Positions 7,706 to 25,746 of a DNA stretch of 64,000 nucleotides are shown in pieces. Source of the DNA: an uncultured Flavobacteriaceae bacterium (GTDB taxonomy: Bacteria; Bacteroidota; Bacteroidia; Flavobacteriales; Flavobacteriaceae); NCBI GenBank assembly GCA_913062575.1, contig CAJXVT010000001.1, positions 1-64,000 on the forward strand, in the 5' to 3' direction. Both the position numbers and the translations under genes were made by a program. The notes beneath the pieces were generated by a model. The model ran no database searches, had not been told where the DNA came from, and worked only from the letters and a program-made list of their open reading frames with translations. Position 1 is the first letter of the stretch. Every line of letters starts with the position of its first letter.

Positions 7706-7913
7706 ATTTTATCTCTTTTTGATAAGAGGTCTTCTTTTTCTCAACAATCATCCCATCTCAACTAAAAAATTGTGTAAATAATTTTTCATAGTTAGAATTT
7801 AATGTTAATGTTTTGTTAACATCAAAAGTAGTGCCAAAACTTTCTCAATAAATTACTCTCAAAAGTTTAAGTTAAATTGTGAGATGTAAATTACTGTTTT
7901 ATAGATGTTTGAT

Positions 7914-22634: not shown

Positions 22635-23993
22635 ATGAAATACGCTAAAAATATATTAGAAACGATTGGTAACACACCTTTAGTTCAGTTAAACTCTGTT
22701 ACAAAAGAAGTAGATGCTTTGGTCTTAGCTAAGGTAGAGACATTTAATCCTGGGAATTCTGTAAAGGATAGAATGGCTTTGAAAATGATTGAAGATGCAG
22801 AAGCTGATGGGAGATTAAAGCCAGGAGGAACTATTATTGAAGGAACTTCTGGAAATACAGGAATGGGATTGGCTTTAGCTGCCATAGTTAAAGGCTACAA
22901 ATGTATTTTTGTGATTTCTGATAAGCAATCTAAAGAGAAAATGGATATTTTACGTGCTGTTGGAGCAGAAGTAGTTGTGTGTCCAACTAATGTAGAGCCA
23001 GAAGATCCACGATCGTATTATTCGGTTTCTAAACGTTTAGGAGCAGAAACGCCAAACTCTTGGTATGTAAATCAATATGATAACCCAAGTAATGCTTTAG
23101 CGCATTACGAGCAAACAGCTCCAGAAATCTGGGAGCAAACAGACGGAAAAATCACACACCTTGTAGTTGGAGTTGGAACTGGAGGGACAATTTCTGGGAT
23201 TGGAAGATATTTAAAAGAGAAAAATCCAAATATCAAAATTTGGGGAGTTGACACGTATGGTTCTGTATTTAAAAAATACCATGAAACTGGGGTGTTTGAT
23301 GAGAATGAAATCTATCCATATATTACTGAAGGAATTGGAGAAGATATTTTACCTAAGAATGTAGATTTTAGCTTGATAGATGGATTTACAAAGGTAACTG
23401 ATAAAGATGCTGCAGTTTATACACGAATGATTGCTAAAGAAGAAGGGATTTTTGTTGGGAATTCTGCTGGGTCTGCTATTAAAGGATTGTTGCAATTAAA
23501 AGAGCACTTTACAAAAGATGATGTGGTTGTGGTGGTGTTTCACGATCATGGAAGTAGATATGTTGGTAAAATGTTTAATGATGAATGGATGCGTGAAAGA
23601 GGTTTCTTAGATGAAGAAATTACAACAGCTGCAGATTTGATTAAAGGTCATGTAGACTTGTCTTTAGTAACAGTAAAAACTGAAGAATTAGTTTCTCATG
23701 CAATTGAAAGAATGCGTGAATATAAAATTTCTCAAATTCCGGTTGAAGACGTAAATGGTTTTGTTGGTTCAGTTGATGAGACCGCTTTGTTAAGAAGTTA
23801 TTTAGCGGATAGAGATATTGCAGACAAACCAATTAGAGAAGTTATGGGAGCAATATACCCAGTTGTTAAAAAAGACACTTCAATAACAATTGTATCAAAA
23901 TTGATTACAAAAGAAAATCAAGCGGTATTGGTAGATTTAGAAGATGGGAAATTTAGTATTATTACTAAACATGATGTTATTAATGCTATCTAA
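22635..23993 (+). CDS. Cystathionine beta-synthase (PLP enzyme with CBS pair)
   Basis: This fold-type II PLP enzyme of 452 residues contains the cysteine-synthase core (about 1-320) with the PLP lysine K44 in NPGNSVKDRM and the GTSGNTG phosphate loop, then two CBS domains (about 335-450). The core-plus-CBS layout indicates cystathionine beta-synthase (homocysteine plus serine) rather than plain O-acetylserine sulfhydrylase, though some such proteins make cysteine directly. It acts in the cytoplasm. The CBS pair may bind an adenosyl ligand. A strong terminator follows. Confidence 0.9.
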   Translation: MKYAKNILETIGNTPLVQLNSVTKEVDALVLAKVETFNPGNSVKDRMALKMIEDAEADGRLKPGGTIIEGTSGNTGMGLALAAIVKGYKCIFVISDKQSKEKMDILRAVGAEVVVCPTNVEPEDPRSYYSVSKRLGAETPNSWYVNQYDNPSNALAHYEQTAPEIWEQTDGKITHLVVGVGTGGTISGIGRYLKEKNPNIKIWGVDTYGSVFKKYHETGVFDENEIYPYITEGIGEDILPKNVDFSLIDGFTKVTDKDAAVYTRMIAKEEGIFVGNSAGSAIKGLLQLKEHFTKDDVVVVVFHDHGSRYVGKMFNDEWMRERGFLDEEITTAADLIKGHVDLSLVTVKTEELVSHAIERMREYKISQIPVEDVNGFVGSVDETALLRSYLADRDIADKPIREVMGAIYPVVKKDTSITIVSKLITKENQAVLVDLEDGKFSIITKHDVINAI

Positions 23994-24048: not shown

Positions 24049-24546
24049 TTAACATCCACACCAAATTTCTATAATACTTTTGTTAGGTTGTTGCTTTATT
24101 GTGTAATAGCATCCAACACCATCATCTTTGGGGATGTATTTATTGTCTTTCCAAGTATTTGGAATGTCATTTAAATCTGCCTTGTAAATATTTTCTATCC
24201 ATTTTTTAAGCTTTTCTAAACTGGTTTTAGGGAAAGTAATAGATTCTGTTAAAGGCGAAGCTTCTCCACAGCTATTTGTGGTGAAAACAATTCCGAATTG
24301 ATACTTTTTTGTGTAGCCACATTCCATATTATCAAAATCAGGATCCAATTTAATGTCTAATTTATCAGAAGTAGCTTTGTAATTGTTGTTAAGGTAAAGT
24401 TCTATTAACTTCATGTTCTTAGTTCCATTTTTCTCAACGTTTGTCCGTAACTTTTTTACATTGGGGTGCTTTAAGTTAAATTGTTGTTGACTGAAAATTG
24501 AGAAGCTAAAAGAGAAGAGAAGTAAAAGAGTGAATTTTGTTTTCAT
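24049..24546 (-). CDS. Small secreted hypothetical protein
   Basis: The family is not recognised. The 165-residue protein has a cleavable signal peptide (residues 1-19, ending SIFSQQ) and so is periplasmic or secreted. It has six cysteines in the mature part, including a terminal CGC, which suggests disulfides. A candidate -7 box TATATTTA lies at 24551-24558, inside the T-rich tail of the terminator at 24568-24593. Confidence 0.75.
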   Translation of the reverse strand: MKTKFTLLLLFSFSFSIFSQQQFNLKHPNVKKLRTNVEKNGTKNMKLIELYLNNNYKATSDKLDIKLDPDFDNMECGYTKKYQFGIVFTTNSCGEASPLTESITFPKTSLEKLKKWIENIYKADLNDIPNTWKDNKYIPKDDGVGCYYTIKQQPNKSIIEIWCGC

Positions 24547-24567
24547 GCATTAAATATACAAAAAACA

Positions 24568-24593
24568 AAAACCACTTCGCTAGAAGTGGTTTT
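24568..24593 (-). terminator. Strong terminator closing the sigma-54-like unit
   Basis: The 11-bp stem AAAACCACTTC/GAAGTGGTTTT with a 4-base loop is followed on the minus strand by a T-rich tail including T6. It starts 1 base after the stop codon of the 19-codon ORF. Confidence 0.82.
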
Positions 24594-24594
24594 A

Positions 24595-24654
24595 TTAATC
24601 AACTAATTCAAATAATTTACACAATGAAAACAAGTCTCTCACATTTGCTTTCAT
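24595..24654 (-). CDS. Candidate 19-residue micropeptide (or small RNA) behind a sigma-54 promoter
   Basis: On the minus strand an ATG at 24654 opens the ORF MKANVRDLFSLCKLFELVD, which stops at 24595. The peptide is amphipathic with one Cys and no signal. The ATG falls at the start point expected for the sigma-54-like promoter at 24664-24680, and the terminator stem starts one base after the stop, so the transcript would be about 90 nt and nearly leaderless. The unit fills most of the 330-base gap between lipA and the small secreted protein gene; the remaining 24690-24825 is AT-rich with no further signal. It may instead be a regulatory RNA with a chance ORF. No family is known to me. Confidence 0.5.
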   Translation of the reverse strand: MKANVRDLFSLCKLFELVD

Positions 24655-24663
24655 TTTAGTATT

Positions 24664-24680
24664 TGCAAATGGCGTGCCAA
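24664..24680 (-). promoter_or_regulatory. Sigma-54 (-24/-12) promoter
   Basis: The minus strand reads TTGGCACG-CCAT-TTGCA. It matches the sigma-54 consensus YTGGCACGrNNNTTGCW at every fixed base except the single purine position, with the correct GG-to-GC spacing of 12. The predicted start is at about 24653-24654. Chance occurrence of the 12 core bases in an AT-rich 64-kb window is small. Confidence 0.7.
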
Positions 24681-24876: not shown

Positions 24877-25746
24877 TTATTTAGCGTGCTTATGTGCTTT
24901 GTAAGAAGAACGGACTAACGGGCCACTTTCTACATACATAAAGCCCATTTCTAAGCCTAAAGTTTCGTATTTTTTGAATTGCTCAGGAGTAATAAATTCA
25001 TGTACAGGTAAGTGCTTTTTTGAAGGCTGTAAATACTGACCAATGGTGATAATGTCTAAACCAACATTGCGTAAGTCTTTCATAGTTTGAATAACTTCTT
25101 CTTCTTTTTCACCTAATCCTAACATGATACCAGATTTGGTACGCATTCCGTTTTCTTTTAAGTATTTTAAAACACCTAAACTTCTATCGTATTTAGCTTG
25201 AATTCTAACTTCTCTAGTTAATCTTCTTACTGTTTCCACATTATGAGAAACTACTTCTGGAGCCACTTTTATAATTCTATCAATCTGTTTTTCGTTTCCT
25301 TGAAAATCAGGAATCAAAGTTTCTAATGTTGTAGTCGGGTTTGCTCTACGAACTGCATTTACTGTTTCTGCCCAAATAATAGAACCTCCATCTTTTAAGT
25401 CGTCTCTATCAACAGATGTTAATACAGCGTGTTTAATGCTCATTAGCTTTATAGAGCGCGCTACTTTTTCTGGTTCATCCCATTCAACAGTTTCAGGTCT
25501 TCCAGTTTTTACACCACAGAATCCACAAGAACGTGTACAGATATTTCCAAGTATCATAAAAGTTGCTGTTCCTTCTCCCCAACATTCTCCCATATTAGGG
25601 CAACTTCCACTAGCACAAATTGTATTTAATTTGTATTTGTCTACCAATCCACGTAATTCTGTGTATTTTTTACCTACAGGTAATTTTACACGCAACCATC
25701 TTGGTTTTTTTACTTTTTCTGGTAGGGTAACTGATTCGTTTGACAT
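24877..25746 (-). CDS. lipA: Lipoyl synthase
   Basis: This radical-SAM enzyme inserts two sulfurs into octanoyl-lipoyl domains in the cytoplasm. The auxiliary cluster cysteines are C44, C49 and C55 in [13 protein letters not shown], and the radical-SAM cysteines are C70, C74 and C77 in [10 protein letters not shown]. The C-terminal [10 protein letters not shown] motif supplies the Ser ligand. Its 289 residues are typical. It stands alone with a -7 box at 25764-25771 and the terminator at 24826-24858. It serves the same complexes as lpd at 13216. Confidence 0.96.

Follow-up and report, generated by a model that had tools for sequence, protein, structure and literature searches.

A 19-codon open reading frame (ORF) fitted between a sigma-54-type promoter and an intrinsic terminator raises the question of whether such a locus makes a peptide or a small RNA (sRNA), and on what its product might act. 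The window analysed here is a 64,000-nucleotide stretch from an uncultured Flavobacteriaceae bacterium, whose genome is assembled to 2.36 Mb in 87 contigs and is 68% complete. The features of the locus and its neighbours are as follows:

24664..24680, minus strand: sigma-54 promoter, with the -24 element TTGGCACG at 24680-24673, the spacer CCAT and the -12 element TTGCA at 24668-24664
24560..24655, minus strand: predicted sRNA of about 90 nt, from the promoter spacing, the terminator and a match to RNA model R1 (E 1.5e-11)
24623..24655, minus strand: 5' hairpin, in which AATGAAAGCAA (24655-24645) pairs with TTGTTTTCATT (24633-24623)
24601..24633, minus strand: antisense core TTGTTTTCATTGTGTAAATTATTTGAATTAGTT, which can base-pair with the 5'UTR and start codon of susC if one A is bulged out
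24560..24593, minus strand: intrinsic terminator, an 11-bp stem (24593-24583/24578-24568) and the T-rich tail TGTTTTTT (24567-24560)
24595..24654, minus strand: 19-codon ORF MKANVRDLFSLCKLFELVD, judged not to be a gene
24877..25746, minus strand: upstream neighbour, a radical SAM protein of lipoyl-synthase type (lipA; Pfam Radical_SAM above its cut-off, LIAS_N below its own)
22635..23993, plus strand: convergent downstream gene, a PLP enzyme with a CBS domain, cystathionine-beta-synthase type (Pfam PALP, CBS)

Locus organization and promoter

The original prediction placed a sigma-54 -24/-12 box at 24680-24664, where it is indeed present with fitting spacing, and the 11-bp terminator stem with a T-rich tail, described as following directly on the ORF stop, is found there as well. 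The ORF was also borne out at 24654-24595, but its ATG, said to lie 12 bases after the -12 element, begins 9 bases past TTGCA (11 past the C of the -12 GC), so that the expected +1 of the predicted sRNA, near 24654-24653 according to the promoter spacing, falls on or inside the ATG. With up to one mismatch allowed, chance would give 0.07 occurrences of TGGCACG-N4-TTGCA in the window, where one was observed, with zero mismatches, while for the looser pattern TGGCACR-N4-TTGCW the locus provides the only site in the window's genome, where the reversed control pattern also gives one match.

The ORF directly past the terminator (24049-24546, minus strand) encodes 165 aa with no Pfam match and stands beside only few sRNA copies (a cluster of five), and was therefore placed outside the unit. 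At the locus no Rfam family reached its gathering score, the best being BTnc231 with 23.1 against 80.4 bits, and the weak Rfam matches around the locus were rejected as low-complexity noise.

Conservation and distribution

Relatives were first found by blastn with the 141-nt region across the genus, which comprised 146 genomes (110 of good quality) and whose named members are Polaribacter and Tenacibaculum. The 20-mer GTGTAAATTATTTGAATTAG is exact in the loci of 18 of the 19 relatives found in this way (L003-L021). Scanning named genomes with the exact core pattern yielded 64 loci with 65 copies, the named ones of which belong to Polaribacter, Tenacibaculum, or Flavobacteriaceae and Bacteroidia without a genus name; since these loci were fetched by the pattern, the invariance of the core among them holds by construction.

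The pooled set contained 84 copies, 71 of them distinct. Within 85 nt upstream, TGGY-N7-TTG is present in 68 of the 71 distinct copies (81 of all 84), compared with 16 of 649 control segments taken at these loci, and is missing in L039, L071 (where a contig end cuts the copy) and L090. This conservation is the decisive support for regarding the box as real, and it also bears out the original prediction's promoter among relatives. A lipA-type gene is located upstream in 61 of the distinct copies, immediately so in 60, and a PLP/CBS-type gene is among the next two downstream ORFs in 45; in some copies about 90 nt separate the end of the lipA-type gene from the core, which leaves little room for an upstream activator site. 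In T. holothuriorum, two tandem sRNA copies each have their own box (L056). Promoter, very short predicted transcript and immediate terminator, which had been proposed to belong together, are thus kept as a unit among relatives.

A covariance model (R1) built from the 65 copies finds 131 of the 146 genus genomes, including 103 of the 110 good ones. A positive genome has one to four matches and mostly one to three copies, some of the extra matches not being sRNAs (L333-L335). Among diverged copies of the genus that were fetched on purpose, 15 of 20 keep the box, and some diverged relatives, such as G019, G023 and G084, retain the box and have lost TTTTCATT, the segment of the core that covers the start codon. 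The model matches 56 of 299 genomes sampled across the family at E 0.01, two of which (G000 and G020) belong to the genus, and most matches outside it are weak. Leaving aside L252, 27 loci outside the genus were scored, and a sigma-54 box was found at five of them (L227, L228, L229, L232 and L237), where about 0.7 would be expected from the control rate of 16/649, and these box-bearing loci in other genera suggest a wider class. As well, three loci of other Flavobacteriaceae genera (L235, L241 and L253) carry GTTTTCATTTT..TTTTTGAGTTAGTTAGTT followed by a terminator, without a sigma-54 box, and are possible further antisense sRNAs.

RNA structure and coding potential

The predicted transcript of the window folds at -23.0 kcal/mol (z -3.2), and 65 complete copies, folded singly, all form the terminator and reach a mean z of -4.7 for the whole transcript and -2.3 for the 5' segment. 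In the terminator the letters vary and the pairing is kept, 8 of the 17 predicted pairs having changed on both sides across 65 relatives. The 5' hairpin can form in 57 of 65 copies (at least three of the four TTTC bases paired), and its 5' arm resembles the susC start ATGAAAACAA. RNAalifold on the MAFFT alignment misses this hairpin because the alignment misplaces it, while the seven core pairs that it proposes never vary and are hence uninformative.

The product of the locus is almost certainly a small RNA and not a peptide. A nearly leaderless 19-codon peptide gene under sigma-54 control would agree with an ATG at the expected +1, with an ORF ending just short of the terminator and with the ATG kept in five of the seven copies of the window's own clade, but in the other two the start has become ACG, and the stop is the same in three copies and lost or moved in four. 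Of the 71 distinct copies, 10 have an ATG in frame downstream of the -12 element and ahead of the core, about five of them in the homologous place; moreover, ATGAAA is located in a hairpin arm, and the letters that are conserved are accounted for by the complementarity to susC described below. We therefore consider the peptide highly improbable. The original prediction, which had left open a peptide or an RNA and had itself taken a conserved hairpin with a drifting ORF as favouring an sRNA, thus stands on the RNA side and fails on the peptide side.

Complementarity to susC starts

When reverse-complemented, the conserved core of about 30 nt (24633-24601) reads as the 5'UTR and start codon found in SusC mRNAs. 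When 32 secondary blastn sites were opened, 25 turned out to be starts of SusC-like genes (MKTKFNGILT... and variants), three belong to a second sRNA (L024, L026 and L028), one is an sRNA copy (L101), one lies at a P-II gene (L105), and two (L102 and L108) were left unassigned. In one genome, at L105 (G026:C35:9836-9878), the core matches where a gene for the nitrogen regulator P-II (GlnB), identified by Pfam, begins. Target sites were collected by a gapped search, an ungapped one having missed most of them. The target element AATTAATTCAAATAATTAyACAATGAAAACAA, with up to three mismatches, is present in 100 of the 146 genus genomes and 91 of the 110 good ones, and the reversed control in none. 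G017 and G020 each have their sites arranged as a tandem susC-susD-susC locus, which in G017 adjoins ribosomal protein genes.

Against the window's core, the 25 susC starts pair at a mean of -36.3 kcal/mol, compared with -11.7 (best -17.5) for 200 shuffled cores on the same starts and -12.1 (best -22.8) for 414 other ORF starts. Because these starts had been found through the core, the pairing was repeated on 30 SusC genes chosen for the similarity of their proteins to a single SusC of G020; 23 of these pair at -28 kcal/mol or better and 26 at -22.8 or better. In the complete genome G020, two genes pass the TIGR04056 cut-off, and their starts give -36.1 and -37.8 kcal/mol; among 13 further receptor-like loci examined, the strongest pairing is -19.5. 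Over 45 target sites, 95-100% of the 5'UTR letters in the pairing region are kept versus 70-78% just upstream, a contrast that is inflated, many of the sites having been retrieved with a pattern made of these very letters. Substitutions in the pairing region are G-U compatible in 87 cases against 8 in the 5'UTR (42 against 8 without one change common to all 45 sites) and in 21 against none in the coding part. Energies and conservation are inflated for both the 25 and the 45 sites, some of which had been located through their resemblance to the core or the element; the wobble bias is less affected by this selection, although transitions are common anyway. By computation, the core is an unstructured conserved stretch complementary to several mRNA starts, as would be expected of a trans-acting antisense RNA.

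None of the starts examined in the window's own genome, which is 68% complete, pairs strongly (best about -18 kcal/mol), so the targets are those seen in relatives. None of the four SusC genes above the cut-off in this genome pairs better than -17.6, the value of one of them (C4), which begins MKTKFNGILTLFLA (MKTKFNGILT) yet has another 5'UTR, and the G020 SusC has no close ortholog in the assembly, where the best match is 33% identical. These poorly pairing SusC genes, the P-II start among the opened sites in G026, and diverged sRNA copies that pair poorly with the one SusC start compared would suit a different reading, in which the main targets are other mRNAs and SusC is a minor one. We think this unlikely, as SusC starts make up 25 of the 32 opened sites and most of the SusC genes selected by protein (23 of 30) pair strongly.

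Occurrence of sRNA and target coincides imperfectly: the target element is present in 95 of 131 genomes with a model match versus 5 of 15 without (Fisher p 0.006, kinship ignored), and among high-quality genomes in 88 of 103 versus 3 of 7 (p 0.016, kinship likewise ignored). When sRNAs and targets were swapped between genomes (22 of 25 pairs usable), own pairs scored -32.0 against -30.65 (sd 0.46) for swapped ones (p 0.002), and the eight diverged pairs alone gave p 0.08; pair swapping thus yields a weak signal of sRNA-target co-evolution.

The similarity might also reflect origin only, the locus being an antisense relic or inverted duplication derived from susC with no regulatory role. Its opposite strand does read like a susC 5'UTR and start, and the TTTTCATT part is lost in some relatives. 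We nevertheless find this very unlikely, because most of the genus retains the whole set of box, 5' hairpin, core and terminator at one locus while the flanks drift, and because the box is retained at more loci outside the genus (5 of 27) than the roughly 0.7 expected.

Proposed mechanism

From the promoter, the terminator, their conservation and the complementarity, all of which are read directly in the sequence, we infer transcription, dependence on sigma-54, repression and a controlling signal: the locus probably encodes a sigma-54-driven, trans-acting antisense sRNA of about 90 nt that blocks susC translation. In such a model, a sigma-54 activator would switch on the RNA, whose core would form a duplex of about 33 nt, interrupted by one bulged A, with the susC 5'UTR, the start codon and the first codons. 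The targets would be mRNAs of SusC-type TonB-dependent receptors, especially those of the tandem susC-susD locus, with products starting MKTKFNGILT. Once the start region is covered, ribosome binding would be blocked and the uptake of SusC/SusD substrates lowered, and the 5' hairpin, whose first arm mimics the susC start, may partly mask the core.

Alternatively, the sRNA could activate susC, or affect only RNA stability without a translation block. In other systems, an RNA bound upstream of a start can unfold the mRNA or protect it, and here the complementarity spans both the 5'UTR and the start. The start codon itself, however, lies within the pairing, and for FopS, whose pairing is located at the same place, repression is described (PMC11697453, considered in part); activation or a pure stability effect accordingly seems to us quite improbable beside the translational block proposed above.

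Sigma-54 machinery and candidate regulon

The gene rpoN, whose absence would have spoken against a sigma-54 promoter, is present in the window's genome (E 9.4e-52). Sigma-54 activators are few, with four strong PF00158 matches in the window's genome (G000), two in G020 and two in G024. In the latter two genomes these are a response regulator, which in G020 adjoins an MscS-type channel gene, and a receiver-less protein next to lptE. The receiver-less activator by lptE is kept in G000, G020 and G024 (L148, L149 and L150), and is a candidate activator of the sRNA.

To our knowledge, little is known about the role of sigma-54 in Bacteroidota. The pattern TTGGCAC-N5-TTG has 10, 12, 13 and 9 sites in four genomes, against 1, 1, 2 and 1 for its reverse. 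One site in the window (7823-7837, minus strand) lies 185 bases before an ORF that we take to resemble a family 2 glycoside hydrolase. Another is found about 80 bases before a small exported protein, MKKALLLLLGIMSF..., in four genomes (L345, L350, L356 and L371), and this protein is a likely member of the sigma-54 regulon. By eye, the products of several other box-bearing genes look like lipoproteins or exported proteins. This would agree with the proposal that sigma-54 controls the bacterial exterior (PMC3162934, considered in part).

Second copies

Elsewhere in the genomes, second copies with a TAnnTTTG box are present (L323, L324, L326-L328 and L330), to which L331 and L332 are related. In L323, L324, L326, L327, L328 and L330, the -24 box has apparently become TAtttTTGCA, of housekeeping type, at an unchanged distance. 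In addition, a second sRNA with a near-identical antisense core, a TAnnTTTG-type promoter and an unrelated terminator occupies another locus in Tenacibaculum-like genomes (L024, L026, L028, L331 and L332), through which two inputs may converge on one target.

Comparison with known systems

Members of the marine genera Polaribacter and Tenacibaculum use polysaccharides, for whose uptake SusC/SusD pairs serve as the doors. If our reading is right, the locus would be a conserved RNA switch on SusC/SusD uptake and a testable output for sigma-54 in Bacteroidota. RybB and MicA of Gammaproteobacteria are Hfq-dependent sigma-E sRNAs that turn off many outer-membrane protein mRNAs, and they resemble this sRNA in logic only. 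A broader scheme, in which marine Bacteroidota possess a sigma-54 envelope-type response, with one of the few enhancer-binding proteins inducing the sRNA and the sRNA repressing core SusC/SusD, as a counterpart of sigma-E with RybB and MicA that is independent of FopS, is offered tentatively, and we hold it to be less likely than the antisense mechanism itself and rather doubtful as a whole.

GlmY acts as a decoy, and the Qrr RNAs of Vibrio are sigma-54-dependent sRNAs on quorum-sensing mRNAs. The sRNA gene glmY of E. coli has a sigma-54 promoter (PMC6075780, considered in part). The locus described here is similar in that an sRNA gene has a sigma-54 promoter (here predicted), and would hence depend on an enhancer-binding protein; unlike it, GlmY and Qrr are unrelated in sequence and, in the material considered, neither concerns SusC. 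In Flavobacteriaceae, Rfp18 of Flavobacterium psychrophilum acts on metalloprotease mRNAs (part of PMC9723704). Our sRNA shares with the Rfp sRNAs the family and conservation within a genus, but none of those is placed under sigma-54 or against susC in that part of the source (PMC9723704). Among openly accessible titles and abstracts, outside of which lie subscription journals and preprints, we found no sigma-54 sRNA against susC in Polaribacter or Tenacibaculum. A sigma-54 promoter on an sRNA is thus already known in other phyla, and its predicted combination with susC in marine Flavobacteriaceae appears, as far as those titles and abstracts go, to be new.

The closest parallels come from Bacteroides thetaiotaomicron. 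According to part of PMC11697453, GibS has two seeds, the targets BT_0771 and BT_3893 and a non-canonical promoter, PM2. It is likewise a Bacteroidota sRNA pairing with translation initiation regions (here computed), and differs, as far as that part of the source describes it, in its two seeds, its other targets and its PM2 promoter. FopS, described in the same source, pairs around the start codon of susC-like mRNAs and represses their translation, as shown for the susC BT_3983 in vitro and in cells, and has 14 copies, canonical sigma-ABfr promoters and a single-stranded 5' seed, and is bound by the RRM protein RbpB (PMC11697453, considered in part). Both FopS and our sRNA are short, with an antisense seed, a terminator and pairing around the susC start codon (here computed). 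Unlike FopS as portrayed there, our sRNA occurs mostly in one to three copies per genome instead of 14; it has a sigma-54 box at the lipA locus, and TAnnTTTG in some second copies, in place of sigma-ABfr promoters; and it carries a 5' hairpin before the core, with pairing over about 33 nt, where FopS has a single-stranded 5' seed. No sequence homology between the two is seen in what was compared, and no RbpB-type RRM_1 protein was found in G000 (incomplete) or G020, the control Bacteroides ihuae being positive. Since copy number, promoter and RRM partner differ, we do not file the sRNA under FopS. If our reading holds, antisense control of susC starts would have arisen in another Bacteroidota lineage with a different promoter and apparently without an RRM protein, and such a second lineage would make the susC start a recurrent control point.
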